DNA of 64,000 bases. Source: Nocardioides daphniae (GTDB taxonomy: Bacteria > Actinomycetota > Actinomycetes > Propionibacteriales > Nocardioidaceae). A program made the translations under genes and the position numbers. The notes beneath the pieces were generated by a model. It did not search any database. It was given only the letters and a program-made list of their open reading frames with translations, and was not told the DNA's origin. Below are positions 3,307 through 62,398 of the stretch, piece after piece; the stretch's first letter is position 1; every line of letters starts with the position of its first letter. The stretch covers positions 62,001-126,000 of the forward strand of contig NZ_CP038462.1 in assembly GCF_004777465.1 (NCBI RefSeq), written 5' to 3'.

Positions 3307-3972
3307 TCAGGTCGAGGGCATCGGTGCGAGTGGTGGGCCACGGCGACTGATCGAGCCGATCGACTCACGCAGACGGCAGGCGCGATCCTCCGGCCGCGGG
3401 CTCAGCACTCTTGCCCGCGCGGTGCAACGCATCGGCGCGCCCGTGGGGGTCGTGACCCAACCCCAGAGCAGTGCGAGCAGTGCCCATGCCGATTGCTCGC
3501 CGCGCCACAGCCACCAGGCGACCCCAGCCGCTGCGGCGAGGTGCGCCGCCATCATCGGCGCGTCGGTGCCGGCGACGTGATCGACCAGGTGCTGGAGCCC
3601 GGGCGTGGCCGTGGTTGTCGCCCTGTCCGGATCGGGTACGACGGCGAGCTGATCGCGCACCCCGCCGGGCCGGGCTCTCTGGAGGGGCGGGACCGGTCGG
3701 GCCGCGACGGGGGCATGAGGTGCCACGTGACCCGCGGTCACGGTGAGAAGCAGGTGCACGGCGGCCTGGCCGCCGCCGACCAGGACCACGATCCGCACGT
3801 AGCCCGCCGGTGTGGTCAGCGCCGCTGCGGCGATCACGAGCAGCGAGCTGAACGCGGCGACCGCGGTGATCGGGCCGGGCAGGAGCCCGCCTGCCGTCAC
3901 GTGAGCGGTCGTGCCAAGGGCGGTTGCCACGGCGGCAACCAGGAAGGCGCGGGTCCACAGCATCGCGTTCAT
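3307..3972 (-). CDS. Membrane protein of the copper-type cluster, unknown function
   Basis: 221 aa. Four hydrophobic segments (about 8-30, 35-52, 58-80, 145-185) and an Arg-rich tail. A histidine-bearing segment (AAVHLLLTVTAGHVAPHAP) could bind metal. The start overlaps the stop of the upstream membrane gene (ATGA at 3969-3972), so both are translated together. The family is seen beside the large membrane protein and cupredoxin-like lipoprotein in actinobacteria; no enzymatic motif is visible. Confidence 0.5.
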   Translation of the reverse strand: MNAMLWTRAFLVAAVATALGTTAHVTAGGLLPGPITAVAAFSSLLVIAAAALTTPAGYVRIVVLVGGGQAAVHLLLTVTAGHVAPHAPVAARPVPPLQRARPGGVRDQLAVVPDPDRATTTATPGLQHLVDHVAGTDAPMMAAHLAAAAGVAWWLWRGEQSAWALLALLWGWVTTPTGAPMRCTARARVLSPRPEDRACRLRESIGSISRRGPPLAPMPST

Positions 3973-17983: not shown

Positions 17984-18361
17984 ATGACCCCAGCGCTCCT
18001 CCTCATCGTGGCGATCGCCTACCTCGGCGGCGCCGTCCTGGTGGTCGCAGCGCTGGCGAAGGCGCTCTCGTCCTGGTCCGCCAGCTGGCGCAAGCGCAGC
18101 CACGCTGCCCTGGCCGACGAGGGCCTGCAGGACAAGGCCGCCGCGGCGATGGCGGCCGCCGCCGCGCTCGCGAACGTCGCGCCCCCGGCGACCGACGTCG
18201 TCGCCTACCTCGGGACGCCCACCGGAGACGACGCACGACCCGCGGGCGATGGTGGCCTGGCCGTGACCCGCTTCCGGTCCGGGCACCCTGCCACCGTGGT
18301 GTTCGCGCAGGCCGCACTCACCGGCCTGAGCCCTACGGCGCTTCAAAGCCTGGCCGCGCAC
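17984..18361 (+). pseudogene. M48 metalloprotease, N-terminal half (split by the 18362-23948 element)
   Basis: ATG at 17984; 126 residues up to His126 in LSPTALQSLAAH. The frame then runs into foreign sequence and stops at 18394. It has an N-terminal membrane helix (LLLIVAIAYLGGAVLVVAALA) and VTRFRSGHPATVVFAQAALTG, as in HtpX/M48 proteases. The missing part, starting exactly at ELGHVVRREH, is found at 23949. Joining the two gives AAHELGHVVRREH, a perfect HExxH zinc motif, and a 269-aa protein in frame. Confidence 0.85.
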
Positions 18362-18507
18362 GACCTATTGACCGCACCAACTGGAGTGTCCTGAGCCGTC
18401 CCCGGGCGACCAGTGCGGCACGACTCGCCGGTCGATGGGGATGTCCGCCGTTCCCGAGGCTTTGCGTGCTGCCGTTCGTCGCGACGACGAGCGGAAGGAC
18501 ATCTGGG

Positions 18508-19656
18508 ATGGAGCGTGACGTGACGGCTTTGGTCGTCCCGACCATCGGCGCCGTGGCCAGCATCGACGCGGCGCCGGGCACGGTGCTGCTGGATGCGACT
18601 GGCGAGCCGGTCGAAGAGGTCAGCGAGTTCTTCGCCACGATGGTGGCCTGCGGCGCGAGCTTCAGTTCGCTGCGGTCCTATGGCCTGGCGCTGCTGCGTT
18701 GGTGGCGGTTCCTGGCTGTCATCGAGGTGCCTTGGCAGCGCGCGGGCCGGATCGAGGCACGCGACTTCGTGTTGTGGATGCGGCTGGTGGGCCCAGCAGG
18801 CCGGCCGGGCGGGTACGCGCCGGCGACGATCAACCACGCCCTCGCGGTGGTCAAGATGTTCTACGCCGACCGGACCCGCGCCGGCGACGGGCCACTGGTC
18901 AACCCGGTCCCCGACGCCGTCCATCGAGCCGGACGGAGGTCCCAAGCGCATCACAATCCGATGCAGCCCTTCGCGCCAGGACCGCGGGCGCCACTGCGGC
19001 AGAAGATGCCTGAGCGGATTCCTCGCCACCTGCCCGACGGGCTCTTCGACGAGCTGTTCGCTACGTTGCGCTCGGACCGGGACCGTGCCCTGCTGGCGTT
19101 CTACGTCTCGACCGGTGCCCGCGCCTCTGAACTCCTCGGCGTCACCGTGGACCTCGTGAATCCCGGCGACCAGCGCATCGGCGTACGTCGGAAGGGCTCG
19201 GGCCGGTTGCAGTGGCTACCCGCCTCCGCGGATGCGTTCGTGTGGCTTCGGCTCTACGAGCAGCAGACCGAGCGTCCGGCCGGCGAGCAGGCGTTGTGGC
19301 TGACCCGGCGACGTCCGGTGCGCCCGCTGACCTACTCGGCAGCCCGGCGAATGCTGCAACGGGCGAACGAGTCGCTGGGCACGGCCTGGACGCTGCACGA
19401 CCTGAGGCACACCGCCGCTCAGCGGATGGTCGACGACCCCGCCATGTCGTTGACCGATGTGCAGTGGGTGCTGGGCCACGCCCACATCACCACGACCCAG
19501 CTCTATCTGCGTCCGCGGGAGGAAGAGGTCGTCGCCCGCGTGCTGGCCCATCACCGCGACCGGGTTGAACGGCCGTCCACACCACCACCGCCTGTGGACA
19601 CGGCGGGATACTCCGCCGAGGTGCTGGCGGTGCTGTTCGGCGGGACACGGCCATGA
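18508..19656 (+). CDS. Tyrosine recombinase 1 (TnpA-like)
   Basis: 382 aa from the ATG at 18508 (GGAAGGAC upstream). An N-terminal core-binding domain is followed by a catalytic domain with TGARASELLGV (Arg), TLHDLRHTAAQRM (HxxR), VLGHAHITTTQLYLRP (His and Tyr nucleophile). The set is complete, so it should be active. It cuts and rejoins DNA at the element ends. The gene overlaps the second recombinase by 4 bp. Confidence 0.9.
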   Translation: MERDVTALVVPTIGAVASIDAAPGTVLLDATGEPVEEVSEFFATMVACGASFSSLRSYGLALLRWWRFLAVIEVPWQRAGRIEARDFVLWMRLVGPAGRPGGYAPATINHALAVVKMFYADRTRAGDGPLVNPVPDAVHRAGRRSQAHHNPMQPFAPGPRAPLRQKMPERIPRHLPDGLFDELFATLRSDRDRALLAFYVSTGARASELLGVTVDLVNPGDQRIGVRRKGSGRLQWLPASADAFVWLRLYEQQTERPAGEQALWLTRRRPVRPLTYSAARRMLQRANESLGTAWTLHDLRHTAAQRMVDDPAMSLTDVQWVLGHAHITTTQLYLRPREEEVVARVLAHHRDRVERPSTPPPPVDTAGYSAEVLAVLFGGTRP

Positions 19657-22126
19657 GCGACCACATCGACCCGGTCGCCCACCTTCAGAAGGCCGCGCGC
19701 CCGTCGCGCAACGTGCCCGCCAACAACGGTGGCCTACGCCCCAAGGCGCCGACCCCGACGCTTCCGACGCCGGCGATCGCCCGGCCGACAGTGTGGGCCG
19801 CCTCCCAGATGAGCTATGAGGAGTTGCTCGCCGCGGTCCGCGACCTGGAATCCGCGAACGGCACCACGTTGTCGAAGCAGATCCGCAGCCAGGTGTTGTT
19901 CGCGGAAACCCTCCTCGGTTGGCTGCTGAGGTTCCCCGGGGAGTCGTGGCAGCAACGGTGGCACGCCTCCGGTGCGGACGCAGCCGGAAGGGACTGGACC
20001 GCCTTGGCCGCCGAGCCCGACAGACACGGGCACCTTGTCGCTGCTGCGGGCAGGCTCCTGCTGCTGGACGTGATCCGTCCCGACTACTCCTGGCTCTACG
20101 CGACCCAGGCCACACCCAGACTCTACGAACGGCTCCGGACGCTGCGTGATCCCGCGGGGTTCGCCGACATGGAGCGTCTTTGCGACGCGGATGCGCGGAT
20201 GCTGCCGAGCGACCGGCGCCAGGCGTTGAACCAGCTCACCAGGATGCTGGTCCACAACGGCGGCACGTTGGGCGACATCACCCTGCCGGACTGCATCGAG
20301 GCCCACCGTGCGCAAGACGGCTACCGTGGCCGGTCTCACCCCCGCTGGTACACGCTGCTCCGGGAGGCCGCGATCCTGCCGGCCGACAGCCCGCCGACCA
20401 TCTTCGCCGCGTCACGGCGAGGGCAGTTGACGATCGAGGAGATGGTCGACCGCTACGACGTCGTGTGCCGTCCGGTCAGAGACCTGTTCGTCGCCTACCT
20501 CTACGAACGCCGTGCCGCGATGGACTACAACTCCATCCGCTACCTCGCGGCCAAGCTCGTCCTCTTGTTCTGGCGCGACCTGGAGATCCACGAGCCCGGC
20601 ATCGAGTCCCTGCACCTGACCGACGAGGTCGCGCGTCGCTGGAAGACCAGGCTCAGCGGCCCGGTGCTGTACGGCAGCAACCGCGTCGGGAAGAAGCGCG
20701 AGGACCCCTACACGATCCTCATGGCCGTCCGTGCTTTCTACGCCGACCTCTCCCACTGGGCGCTGGAGGACTCCGCCCGATGGGCCACCTGGGCCGCACC
20801 CTCCCGGTCAACTCCCGCGACCTGGCCGGCATGACCAAGATGCTCAAGCAGTCGCGGTCGCGCACCCACCAGCGCATCCGGGAACTCGCGCCCCTACTTC
20901 CACGGCTCGTCGACGCAGCCAGCGACACCCGAGCGGCAGCCAAGGAGCTGCTCGATGCCGCCGCAGCGACCCCGCCCGGCCAGTCGTTCACCCAGGATGG
21001 TCACACGCTACGACGAGCGACCCTGAGCGACGACGGGAGCCGCGGCCGGAAGGTCAGTCGTGGCCACGTTTACGTCGACAATCCGGAGTCCGGCGGCACC
21101 AGCGACCGGCCGCAGGACAATCGCCGGAACCTAAGCCTTGAGGCCGACCGGGCGTTCTGGGCGTGGGCGCTGGTCGAGGTGCTGCGTCACACCGGGGCAC
21201 GCATCGAGGAAGTCCTCGAGATCACCCACCGTTCCTTCGTGTCCTACCGGCTGCCCTCGACTGGTGAGGTGATCCCGATGCTGCAGATCACCCCGTCCAA
21301 GACCGACAAGGAGCGGCTCTTGGTCATCGGCCCCGAGCTCGCAGTGGCGTTCGCCGAGATCATCTCCCACGTCCGCGGCGACAACGAGCAGCTGCCGCTG
21401 GTCAGCCGCTACGACAGCGCCGAACGCGTGCACAGCCCCGAGCTTCCGTACTTGTTTCAACGGCCCTATGGGATAGGCAGGACCGCGATGAGCTCCTCCT
21501 ACGTCATCAAGCTGCTCGACGAGCTGGTCACCACCGCGAAGATCACCAACAACGGCGGCACACCGGCCAAGTTCAGCCCCCACGACTTCCGAAGGATCTT
21601 CGCCACCGAGGCCGTAGCGTCCGGCCTGCCCGTGCACATCACCGCCAAGATCCTGGGCCACGACTCGATCGCGACGACCCAGACCTATGCGGCGGTCTAC
21701 GACCAGGACGTGATCGAGAACCACCGTGCCTACATCGCCCGCCGGCGAGCACTGCGGCCGTCTCAGGAGTACCGCGAACCCACCGACAGCGAATGGGACG
21801 AGTTCCTCGGCCACTTCGCCCAACGCAAACTCGAACTCGGCACCTGCGGGCGTGCCTACGGCACCGGCTGCCAACACGAACACGCCTGCATCCGCTGCCC
21901 CATGCTCCGTCCCGACCCCGCACAGCACCAACGGCTTCAGCAGATCATCGACAGCCTCGACGGCCGGATCGCCGAGGCCAGCAATCGGGGCTGGCTCGGC
22001 GAGGTCGACGGCCTGCGAACCAGCCGCGCCGCCGCCGAACAGAAACTCACCCAGATGCAGCGCACCGCCACCAACCTCGGCCTGCCCACCGTCCGGAGCC
22101 GACTCGACCCGTCGCCGGATGCGTAA
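19653..22126 (+). pseudogene. Tyrosine recombinase 2 (large, TnpB-like), one frameshift
   Basis: About 824 aa if the single frameshift near 20800-20806 (WATWAAP then PVNSRDLAGM) is repaired; one missing base explains it. The N-terminal 390 residues are a helical domain. The catalytic part has VLRHTGARIEEVLEI (Arg), SPHDFRRIFATEAV (HxxR), KILGHDSIATTQTYAAVY (His, Tyr). A C-terminal extension holds a Cys-rich cluster (CGRAYGTGCQHEHACIRCPM), a probable zinc finger, then a coiled coil. This long form with a zinc tail is typical of the second recombinase of Tn554-like pairs. Confidence 0.8.
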
Positions 22127-22189
22127 GGCGAAGCTCTCTCGCCGTCAGGCCACGAACAGGCCGCGGAGACCCGGGGTGGGTGTCGCCCC

Positions 22190-22363
22190 ATGACCGCCGT
22201 TCTAGCCGACGACGCGAAGTCCATCGCGGTCGCGCTCGTTGCCGCGTGGCGATCGCTCCGAGGCCCAGTCGTCGATCGGCTGAGGCGGCGCATGAAGCTG
22301 CGGGAGAGTCTCGAACTCCGCGCGATGGGATCCAGTGTCAACCCCGGAACCAGCCGAGAGTGA
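22190..22363 (+). CDS. Small basic protein, 57 aa (possible TnpC-like position)
   Basis: ATG at 22190 overlaps the stop of a 24-residue ORF (22119-22193, MRKAKLSRRQATNRP) that itself overlaps the recombinase 2 stop. It reads MTAVLADDAKSIAVALVAAW and then a basic helix (RLRRRMKLRESLELRAM). Position after the second recombinase matches tnpC of Tn554, but I see no sequence link. The pair could be one gene split by an indel. Confidence 0.35.
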   Translation: MTAVLADDAKSIAVALVAAWRSLRGPVVDRLRRRMKLRESLELRAMGSSVNPGTSRE

Positions 22364-22470
22364 CACGCGTCACACTGGTGTATAGTCGCTATCGATCGGC
22401 CAAGAGCGAATCCGATGGCGTCGGTCGAAGCGTCGTTGCGAGGGAGGGTCCGCCAGTGCGGTCATAGAGA

Positions 22471-23016
22471 ATGCGTAGTCTCTGTCTCGGCTCGGCAGCC
22501 GTTGTCTGCCTAGGATTTCTCGTCGTTGCTCCAGCCATGGCTGACGAGTGGGGTTCCCAAGACGGCAACACTGGTGCGCACCCCGATGAGGATCCGCACT
22601 CGTATTGTCTGGGGAGTTCCGTGTCTGCTGACCTCGAGGAGAACATCGACGCCGCAGCATGGAACGCACTTGATCCCACGCAGGTTAACGTCAATTACAG
22701 TTCGACCTGCCAGTTGACGGGCGCGGGCGAGACGGATGTGGTGTGGACTCAGGGGAATATCGCATCTGGGGCACTCGCGTGGACCGACTGCGACGACTAC
22801 GAAAGCGACCCTCCGACAAATCAGTGCGACCAGAATTACGTCCGCGTCGACTTGGCAACGGTCAATCAAGGGGTGGACGACGAGATCGATCAGACCATAA
22901 CAACGTGCCATGAGTTCGGGCACACCGCAGGCCTGTCGCACGGTTCGACCCAGGACGACTGCATGGAGAACGTGTCAACCTCCAATCACAAACGCGCTCA
23001 AGTGGCGTCGCTATAG
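22471..23016 (+). CDS. Secreted metzincin-type metalloprotease (element cargo)
   Basis: 181 aa. Sec signal peptide (MRSLCLGSAAVVCLGFLVVA, cleavage after APAMA). The C-terminal part has TTCHEFGHTAGLSHGSTQDDCM: the full HExxHxxGxxH zinc motif with a Met-turn-like CM nearby, and six or more cysteines for disulfides. The pattern resembles matrixin/snapalysin-like proteases. Base composition is lower in GC than the flanks, as expected for transferred cargo. A palindromic GTGAC-N4-GTCAC lies about 100 bp upstream. Confidence 0.75.
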   Translation: MRSLCLGSAAVVCLGFLVVAPAMADEWGSQDGNTGAHPDEDPHSYCLGSSVSADLEENIDAAAWNALDPTQVNVNYSSTCQLTGAGETDVVWTQGNIASGALAWTDCDDYESDPPTNQCDQNYVRVDLATVNQGVDDEIDQTITTCHEFGHTAGLSHGSTQDDCMENVSTSNHKRAQVASL

Positions 23017-23079
23017 CGCTCACCACATCGATGACCACATCAACCCGTGGTTCTGATCTAACGAGAAGGGACGGTTGAC

Positions 23080-23700
23080 ATGGCAAAGCGATGGTTCGCC
23101 GCGACGCTGAGTATTGCCGTGCTCTTCGGGGTAGGGGCATGCTCGAACGAGAAGACTCAAGCCACTTCACAGGCGAACTCGCCGGTAGCGGACTCGGAAC
23201 GCGCAGATCCTTCTGCTGCTCTGGTCGCGCATCTACGCGACACGTCCTCGGCTCGGTACGAGCCGTTCGAAACACCGAAGGACATGCTTTCTGACGCTGA
23301 CGTCGCGATCATGGGTGAGGTGGTCTCCGTAGAGCTCGCGATGATCAGAAACGAGTTCGACGGCCAAGGCGGAGTTGTTGTAGGAGTCCGACCTCTAGAG
23401 GTTTGGAAGGAACCCAAAGGCGAGCCGGCCGAGTTGACGTACTTCGTGGTACGCCGCGCAAAGAACGTCGGGGTCGAACCCTTCCGCGCAGGACTTCCCG
23501 TTGGCCATAACGTCGCGATCTTCGGATACACGTCCGATGTTCAGTTCATAGAAGGCGATCCTGGCCAGCCCATCCTTGAACCGGCACCTCAGGGTCTGTT
23601 CATCGAGACCGACGCCGGGTTGGCGAACGTGTACGCCCCCGGCGACGACGGCTGGCCAGAGATCAAGACGATTAAGGATCTTGCCGCCTCGATTCAATAG
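23080..23700 (+). CDS. Lipoprotein of unknown function (element cargo)
   Basis: 206 aa, ATG with GAGAAGGGACGG upstream. Lipobox VGAC at residues 18-21 (C21 acylated), then a Ser/Ala linker and a beta-rich domain (MLSDADVAIMGEVVSVELA, GGVVVGVRPLEVWK, GHNVAIFGYTSDVQF). No family recognised. It follows the secreted metalloprotease; the two may act together outside the membrane, which is inference. Confidence 0.6.
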   Translation: MAKRWFAATLSIAVLFGVGACSNEKTQATSQANSPVADSERADPSAALVAHLRDTSSARYEPFETPKDMLSDADVAIMGEVVSVELAMIRNEFDGQGGVVVGVRPLEVWKEPKGEPAELTYFVVRRAKNVGVEPFRAGLPVGHNVAIFGYTSDVQFIEGDPGQPILEPAPQGLFIETDAGLANVYAPGDDGWPEIKTIKDLAASIQ

Positions 23701-23948
23701 TGTCTGGGAACTGCTGCGTCGACATGCGAGATGGGAGTTATTAGGCGTAGTGCGGATGGACCCCCGCGTGCGGAATTTGCAGCAGGACGCACGCTGCGAT
23801 CGGTCGGACAAGAGACGCCCAGCCCGAGATAGGATCTCGATGCGAGATCCAACCATCCAGTGCGGGTTAGCACGTTCGGGGCCGCCCGGCACACCTGAGT
23901 GGCGTGATAGGCCGCGATGAGCCAGCCGGTTCGCTTTGGTGCAGAAAA

Positions 23949-24380
23949 GAGCTCGGCCACGTCGTCCGACGTGAGCACTCCTCGGCCGCGGCGCGCTACG
24001 GCTGGCTGGTCGGCTACCTGGCTCTGATGCTGGCCGGCGGAGGGCTCACCGCCACGGCTCTCCTGGCCGCGCCCCAGATGGCGGGGCCGGCGATGCTGGC
24101 GACGACGAGCGCCGCATTGGCTTTCCTCGGTCTCCAGGTCGCCTTCGACCGGCGCGAAGAGATCGCCGCCGACCTGTTCGCCGTAGACCTGACCCGCGAC
24201 CTCGAGGCAGCCGCCGAGCTGATGAGCTTCTACGAGGAGAACGTCACCAAGCCCCCGACCAGCGGTGGTCTCGGCCGAGCCTGGGCGCAGTTCGAGCGCC
24301 GCTGGTTCGCGACGCACCCGGCCCCCCAGGCCCGGCTCGCAGCGATGCGGCGACACCTGGTCGACCAGCAGACCGACTAG
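23949..24380 (+). pseudogene. M48 metalloprotease, C-terminal half
   Basis: Begins at Glu of the split zinc motif (ELGHVVRREHSSAAARY). Two membrane helices follow, then REEIAADLFAVDLTRDLEAA, the third zinc-ligand Glu region of M48, and a final FATHPAPQARLAAMRRHL. The preceding codon is AAA (Lys) from the element instead of CAC. A chance GTG at 23904 could start translation but would give KELGH, without the first zinc ligand. The stop overlaps the convergent gene by 2 bp. Confidence 0.85.
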
Positions 24381-61618: not shown

Positions 61619-62398
61619 GTGAACGGCTTGCAGGAGACCGTGCTCTCCGGATCCCTCCTTCTGGCGGCCCTCGTCGCGGTGGCCGCCGGGGTCGTGTCGT
61701 TCTTCTCTCCTTGCTCGCTGCCGCTGGTGCCGGGGTATCTCTCCTATGTGGCGGGCGTGTCCGGGCAGGAGTCTGCCGTCGTCCGCGAGCTGAAGGGCGA
61801 GGTGCCGTCCCACCGAGGGCGCACCGTGCTGGGGGCGCTGCTCTTCGTGCTCGGCTTCGCGATCGTCTTCACTAGCTACGGCGCATTGTTTGGAGCGTTG
61901 GGTTCTCAGCTTGTGCGTCACCAAGACACGATCATCCGCGTCTCCGGCGCCCTGACGATCGTGTTCGGCCTGGTGTTCGCGCTGTCCGGCGCACGCGTGC
62001 CGCTGCTCGGGCGCACGATGCGCCTGAGCTATCGACCACGCGTCGGTCTCGCGGGAGCGCCGTTGCTGGGAGTGGTGTTCGGCGTCGGCTGGACCCCGTG
62101 CATTGGCCCGGCGCTCGCGGCGGTGCTGACCTTGGCTACGAGCTCGGCAACTGCCGGTCGGGGCGCCGTCCTGGCGTTCGCCTACAGCGTAGGGCTCGGG
62201 CTGCCGTTCCTTCTCTCGGCGCTGTCGGTCAGCAAGGCTATGCGACGTTTCGCCTGGGCCCGGCGACACGGGATGACGGTTGCCCGAGTCGGCGGCGGAT
62301 TCCTGATCCTGCTCGGCGCCTTGCAGCTCACCGGTGCCTGGTCAGAGCTGATGGCATCGCTGCAGTCCCTGATCACCGGGTGGAAGACACCGATTTGA
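61619..62398 (+). CDS. ccdA: CcdA-type thiol-disulfide membrane transporter
   Basis: 259 aa, GTG 10 bp after VKOR. Six helices. Conserved cysteines in [19 protein letters not shown] and [18 protein letters not shown]. It carries reducing equivalents from cytoplasmic thioredoxin to outside partners such as TlpA. The order CcdA-TlpA is the standard reductive branch, so the operon holds both oxidative and reductive branches. Confidence 0.9.

Follow-up and report, generated by a model that had tools for sequence, protein, structure and literature searches.

The window analysed here is a stretch of 64,000 nt from Nocardioides daphniae (GCF_004777465.1, contig NZ_CP038462.1, forward-strand positions 62,001–126,000), in which a 5587-bp element with Tn554-like tyrosine recombinases interrupts the gene of an M48 metalloprotease within the codons of its zinc-binding motif. 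The 5′ half of the gene (17984..18361, + strand, in an open frame running from 17918) is homologous to intact M48 genes and ends in LQSLAAH; the 3′ half (23949..24380, + strand; PF01435, E 1.7e-9) starts with ELGHVVRREH, and its first six bases, GAGCTC, are the same as in intact M48 genes. When bases 18362–23948, which separate the frame ending in SLAAH from the frame starting with ELGHVVRREH, are removed, the flanks join into a single in-frame M48 protein of 269 residues containing AAHELGH (Pfam Peptidase_M48, E 2.2e-12). An earlier note on this DNA, made from the letters alone, had claimed this in-frame join, an insertion exactly between the His and Glu of HExxH, and the lack of a long target duplication, and all three agree with the junctions as we read them: the dinucleotide GA is common to both junctions, which fixes the border to within 2 bp, and nothing longer is shared.

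The element (18362..23948, + strand) is delimited by the in-frame join, by empty sites, and by a shift from 99.9% to 76% identity relative to the copy on plasmid pCHL described below. Its left end consists of a 6-bp spacer, GACCTA (18362..18367, + strand), which is identical in the window, pCHL, and Nocardioides 21Sc5-5, followed by the subterminal inverted repeat TTGACCGCACCAACTGG (18368..18384, + strand); the right end, read in reverse, is TTTTCTGCACCAAAGCG (23932..23948, − strand). The repeats are imperfect, with the GCACCAA given in the earlier note exact at 18374–18380 and its inverse TTGGTGC at 23936–23942. Two recombinase genes follow the left end: (i) a TnpA-like tyrosine recombinase of 396 residues (18466..19656, + strand; PF00589, E 8.8e-20); and (ii) a TnpB-like long recombinase, divided into an N-terminal part (19653..20834, + strand) and a C-terminal catalytic part (20832..22126, + strand; PF00589, E 5.6e-15) with the Cys-rich tail CQHEHACIRCPML. 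Because the tnpA frame runs 4 bases into that of tnpB, there is no intervening gene. The note's assignment of two Tn554-like tyrosine recombinases thus stands, except that the long one is not intact here: TnpB is a single open reading frame (ORF) in pCHL (767 residues) and in genome G014 (822 residues), whereas a single 1-nt gap relative to pCHL, within 20780–20834, breaks the window frame into two overlapping ORFs. The TGA stop of the first part overlaps the ATG start of the second, and therefore reinitiation is possible.

A search with the joined protein matched 6 of 58 genomes, namely the host, in which the gene is split, and five others, each with one unbroken frame. Two Pimelobacter simplex plasmids carry one annotated M48 coding sequence each, located between transfer genes and a relaxase gene. 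In all seven intact M48 homologues that were read at the site, two of which are these near-identical Pimelobacter plasmids, the motif is an uninterrupted HELGH or HELAH encoded by CAC GAG CTC. Because these homologues are unbroken at the site and the pCHL M48 gene contains the same element with the same two junctions, the M48 join cannot be attributed to chance. The split of the catalytic HE pair would abolish the function of the protease.

In plasmid pCHL of Nocardioides sp. QY071, the element lies inside an M48 gene at exactly the same base (H|E). The two elements are 99.90% identical over 3924 bp and 99.58% identical over 1673 bp, and the pCHL element, 7222 bp in length, has an additional stretch that bears an IS1380 transposase gene. 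In the flanks adjoining the junctions, however, identity to the window falls to 76.2% (361 bp) and 75.5% (429 bp). Since an element of 99.9% identity is bounded by flanks of only about 76% identity, the simplest reading of this comparison is that the window and pCHL represent two separate insertions at one base.

Two other accounts of this locus were considered. The two halves could be separate natural genes with recombinase genes between them by chance, as might be argued from the separate open frame of each half and the GTG start upstream of the right half; this account is hardly conceivable, being refuted by the seven single-gene M48 homologues, the single coding sequences in the Pimelobacter records, and the sharp identity boundary against pCHL at both element ends. 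Alternatively, the window and pCHL elements could descend from one insertion and have been homogenised later by gene conversion, with which the identity of the GACCTA spacer and of the site in both copies agrees. We regard this as very improbable, in that the immediate flanks differ at about 24% of bases, the shift in identity falls exactly at the junctions, and the insertions of the clade into ArdC genes are separate events regardless.

Relatives were taken as the best 80 of 121 genome-contig relatives (78 loci) together with plasmid and whole-genome loci, which gave 96 rows, reduced to 93 by removing L045, L049, and L085 as duplicates of L035, L023, and L036. TnpA identity to the window exceeds 60% in ten of the 93 rows, the next best row being at 54%, and on the TnpA tree these ten group together on a single branch. 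Nine of the ten left junctions follow the codon of the initial His in a zincin motif: two are in M48 genes (window and pCHL) and seven in ArdC-type genes. The tenth lies in a DUF222 gene. No Pfam family is shared by M48 and ArdC. The ArdC-type targets were assigned either by Pfam ArdcN (L023 of N. carbamazepini, L047 of Rhodococcus, and L106, a contig of an Acidimicrobiia bin) or by similarity to the G014 ArdC (L035 of Nocardioides 21Sc5-5; L048, a contig of the same Acidimicrobiia bin as L106; L050, a metagenome-assembled genome labelled Bacillota; and L046 of Subtercola boreus, whose left-flank contig ends in KTMIH before the element). L118, an actinobacterial contig, carries its copy at RH|ERT of the DUF222 gene, cut as CAC|GAG, and its genome also holds an ArdC match that is apparently unhit. 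Both sides could be read in seven of the ten copies (window, pCHL, L023, L035, L047, L106, and L118), with the motifs HELGH, HELAH, HELGH, HEFGH, HEAAH, HELAY (L106), and the DUF222 site. Because close copies are also found in ArdC-type and DUF222 genes, the address of the element is motif-encoding DNA and not M48. The earlier note had made the conserved protease motif the address, and this holds for the motif codons; its restriction to M48 does not, with 7/10 copies in ArdC-type genes and 1/10 in DUF222. Copies in unrelated targets, which the note itself had named as a refutation, tell against M48 specificity and strengthen the motif-codon claim.

The relative in N. carbamazepini (L023:2893-13991) is 11.1 kb long and lies in ArdC; judged by eye, its cargo ORFs resemble genes for MMPL and MFS transporters, for a methyltransferase, and for a two-component system, and its TnpA frame is broken. 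In Nocardioides sp. QY071 and strain 21Sc5-5, neither recombinase frame is interrupted. DNA similarity of the window element to the copies in G014 and G230 reaches as far as the last part of TnpB (element base 3742) and no further. ArdC-like genes are present at E ≤ 1e-80 in 60 of 209 genomes of the genus, including the split genes of G014 and G230.

Comparison of the junctions revealed CAC|GAR at each of the seven sites read from both sides, and CAC is the last codon of the left flank in all ten copies. A longer pattern, GCNCAC|GARCTCGSNCAY, fits 25 of 28 intact genes (7 M48 and 21 ArdC). Within the window, the HExxH stretches near 1261 and 50317 also have CAC GAG, preceded by AAC and not by GCN, and such unhit sites suggest that insertion may require more sequence than the motif itself. 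The left hexamer is GACCTA in the window, pCHL, and 21Sc5-5, whose right hexamers are GAGCTC or GAGTTC, and is GATCTG in N. carbamazepini. In five of the seven two-sided copies, the left hexamer starts with GAC or GAT and not with a Glu codon, whereas the right hexamer starts with GAA or GAG in all seven; L047 (left GAACTG) and L118 (left GAGCGG, right GAGCGC) do not discriminate the origin of the hexamer. Because five of the seven copies cannot carry the Glu codon of the target on the left, the left hexamer is most likely borne by the element, and the target's own hexamer would stay at the right junction.

We propose that the element is a site-specific Tn554-related actinobacterial transposon that recombines with motif-encoding DNA centred on CAC|GAR and thereby lands in unrelated gene families, a reading to which we assign a probability of about 0.88. 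TnpA and the long TnpB would act on the element in a circular or comparable form and join it to a short target with CAC|GAR at its centre, which exists where zincins encode an AHE-type motif. Joining would occur after the CAC (His) codon, so that the right junction retains the target hexamer, GAGCTC in the window. As M48 and ArdC genes share this motif DNA and little else, the element could enter both of these unrelated families, each insertion splitting the catalytic HE pair. The junctions, the separate insertions at one base, the empty sites in intact M48 and ArdC genes, and the conservation of the target across the clade are observed. The circular intermediate, the enzymatic recognition of the target DNA, and any reach of that recognition beyond CAC|GAR are all putative parts of this model. 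A different explanation is that the element targets conjugative-module genes (M48 or ArdC) as such, its position in HExxH being incidental: nine of the ten copies are in these two families, and the M48 genes of Pimelobacter and pCHL adjoin transfer genes. Yet the two families are cut after the same His codon although they share no Pfam family, L118 cuts CAC|GAG in DUF222, and other clades cut other motifs, which makes this explanation quite improbable.

Several observations weigh against the proposed reading. The target gene was read only on the left side in L046, L048, and L050; the L118 target is not a zincin; the second half of the L106 target reads ELAY, so its motif is not HExxH; and the SH-aLRT (Shimodaira–Hasegawa-like approximate likelihood ratio test) value of 93 for the ten-row branch is under the tool's mark of 95. 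The pattern GCNCAC|GARCTCGSNCAY fits only 3/7 hit sites, and GCNCAC fits 5/7. All 21 ArdC genes read at the site are uninterrupted, one of them in the host (L145, G000:C1:2047872), and HExxH stretches near positions 1261, 22908, and 50317 of the window were likewise found uninterrupted by a pattern scan. Finally, the junctions of the window are ambiguous by 2 bp, and the window copy itself, with its TnpB split, may be dead or stranded.

Downstream of the recombinase genes, the element carries two cargo genes. One encodes a metzincin-like protease (22471..23016, + strand; Matrixin, score equal to the Pfam cut-off) with an HEFGH motif, in a segment 99.6% shared with pCHL that has a 2-nt gap near its end. 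The first His codon of this HEFGH is CAT, and all ten insertion sites of the clade use CAC. The other encodes a putative lipoprotein (23080..23700, + strand), identified as an ORF with no family at cut-off. Rfam and tRNA scans of the window found nothing.

The search for TnpA was extended to other collections. A class-wide search of 394 genomes (E ≤ 1e-100) gave two further copies at 52–53% identity. Among plasmids, 456 TnpA records were found, one of at least 99% identity (pCHL) and 455 below 60%, and the surrounding regions were inspected in six of the 456. The phage collection gave 17 records, all below 60% identity and none covering 80% of TnpA, and a scan of viral_contigs gave four pattern matches, none of which is a relative.

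The family ends follow the patterns T[TA]GACCGCAC on the left and TGC[AG]G[AG]AAA on the right. Six rows were too near a contig edge for the junction scan, and L048, L106, and L119 yielded no left end by pattern, those of L048 and L106 being read separately. Target labels could be given by eye to 61 of the 93 rows, in 19 target classes, leaving 32 rows unlabelled; many of the labelled targets are conserved motifs of mobile-element proteins. The labels comprise the TnpB Cys-tail (C.HEH|AC.RCP), Tn3 transposase (YREGQE|D and SALV|H), IS110 (GRKT|D and LED|A), IS21 IstA, IS1380, TrwC relaxase (GDPQVHD|H), T2SSE ATPase (GHEGGC|G), GGDEF (GGD|EF), RtcB (HSGSR), Ku, endonuclease VII (HGYVR|G), a plasmid helicase, DUF4192, and others, the motif names (GGDEF, GRKTD, IstA, Cys-tail, and so on) being those that we take to apply. 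All 19 left fragments sent to Pfam fell in the fitting family, 16 of them reaching the curated cut-off, with lower scores for L080 (rve), L110 (Endonuclease_7), and L038 (SNF2); one of the 19, L115 (AAA ATPase), carries no tree label. Five joined targets were also checked with Pfam. Matching right halves directly after TTCAGAGAA-like ends were found in at least 15 of 31 loci tested, the test patterns being loose and chance matches, chiefly L044, having been dropped.

Mapping the 19 labels onto the TnpA tree takes 18 changes, which is the minimum possible, as against 40–47 in 200 shuffles; the target labels therefore follow the tree (L064 was left out of this count and of the tail-hexamer count below). 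Individual loci illustrate the range of targets. In the relative L093, the insertion point within a diguanylate cyclase gene falls precisely at GGD|EF; L121 and L122 have their left junction at GDPQVHD|H of a TrwC relaxase, with the right side not found; and genome G045 holds three copies (L040, L041, and L042) with identical TnpA, 44% identical to that of the window, the flank of L040 being a DUF4192 gene.

One group of relatives, including L056, L059, L063, L072, L077, L082, and others, has entered the stretch that encodes the Cys-tail (C.HEH|AC.RCP) in the tnpB of another Tn554-like element. Both orientations appear to occur; in reversed cases (e.g., L018, L053, and L061), only the left junction was read. 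Six of these loci were tested on the right side, of which L059 gave no match, and the five targets that could be read all contain GCCTGC. In their own tnpB tails, by contrast, the 14 TnpB-tail inserters never contain GCCTGC (0 of 12 distinct tails, vs. 23 of 56 in the others; Fisher p 0.0057, with rows that are not independent). The corresponding Ala codon is GCT in 11 of the 14 and never GCC, whereas GCC is used in 30 of 45 others and is the commonest Ala codon in the eight tnpB genes of TnpB-tail inserters that were counted; the first His codon is CAT in 12 of the 14 vs. 14 of 62 others. Two points count against a reading as self-avoidance: 33 of the 56 distinct tails of other elements also lack GCCTGC, and the own tails of L077, L082, and L087 differ by an amino acid (HEN) and not in synonymous codons alone. 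Taken over the whole family, these tyrosine-recombinase transposons probably address the codons of signature motifs, one motif per clade (HExxH, GGDEF, IS110 GRKTD, IS21, Tn3, IS1380, TrwC relaxase, T2SSE-type ATPase, RtcB, Ku, endonuclease VII, and their own TnpB Cys-tail). Many would in this way inactivate competing mobile elements, and clades that target TnpB would keep their own tnpB safe through a recoded site, in which most of the changes are synonymous.

A 2012 paper on actinobacterial Tn554-related transposons reportedly has Van Houdt as first author. In its accessible part, that paper describes such transposons on plasmids of Rhodococcus, Nocardioides, Streptomyces, and others, with adjacent short (about 350 residues) and long (611–828 residues) tyrosine recombinases in the same direction, some couples being without TnpC (PMC3414803). 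It further remarks that where a genome holds more than one copy, more than one similar attB site could be present, and the part available names no target gene (PMC3414803). The window element fits in this class by its same-strand pair of 396 and 767 (pCHL) or 822 (G014) residues, the long gene being split in the window, and by the end of G014 and G230 similarity at TnpB, TnpC being optional in that class; unlike what the accessible text reports, the targets here are mapped to conserved-motif codons. No third ORF is shared after TnpB among the window, G014, and G230, although no search with a TnpC model was made. In Firmicutes, Tn554, Tn558, Tn559, Tn5406, and Tn6188 enter radC just below a highly conserved motif, according to the portion consulted of a 2013 report (PMC3788773). 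As far as that portion goes, those elements resemble the present ones in tnpA and tnpB, in one preferred site in a gene, and in a conserved motif upstream of the insertion; they differ in having radC as target and a tnpC, compared with zincin codons of M48 and ArdC-type genes here. Tn554 proper likewise inserts without target duplication, and the targets here (M48, ArdC-type, and DUF222) are not radC.

In strand-biased circularizing elements (SE) and Tn554-related elements, as described in the accessible part of a 2023 paper, the 6 bp of the target lie at the left junction and those of the donor at the right (PMC10214605). Such a Tn554/SE footprint is unsupported for the present clade, in which the left hexamer is GAC/GAT-initial in 5/7 copies and the right GAA/GAG-initial in 7/7. 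The same text gives SE a Tfp between the recombinases and Srap, whereas no gene separates tnpA and tnpB here; Srap was not searched for by model. A RIT (recombinase in trio) arrangement of three complete recombinases, each with its catalytic tyrosine, was ruled out, the three ORFs being TnpA and the two pieces of one TnpB. Inteins and group I introns are homing elements that reside in the codons of conserved active-site motifs, a target kept in many hosts, and they splice out, sparing the host gene. The present element likewise sits in conserved active-site codons but does not splice and uses tyrosine recombinases. In the open-access literature, surveyed by titles and the beginnings of abstracts, no paper among those listed dealt with the targeting of HExxH, ArdC, or signature motifs by such elements. 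What looks new here is the targeting of zincin-motif codons within an already known Tn554-related class, together with what may be a broader rule behind it.

This finding offers a landing rule for this transposon class, by which the borders of its members could be found through a conserved motif that joins in frame. An address that is under selection at the protein level and present in many hosts and unrelated genes would explain mobility across species. That some clades enter a relaxase gene and the genes of other transposases suggests that mobile elements parasitise one another; the elements with a recoded copy of their own target provide a testable case of self-immunity.

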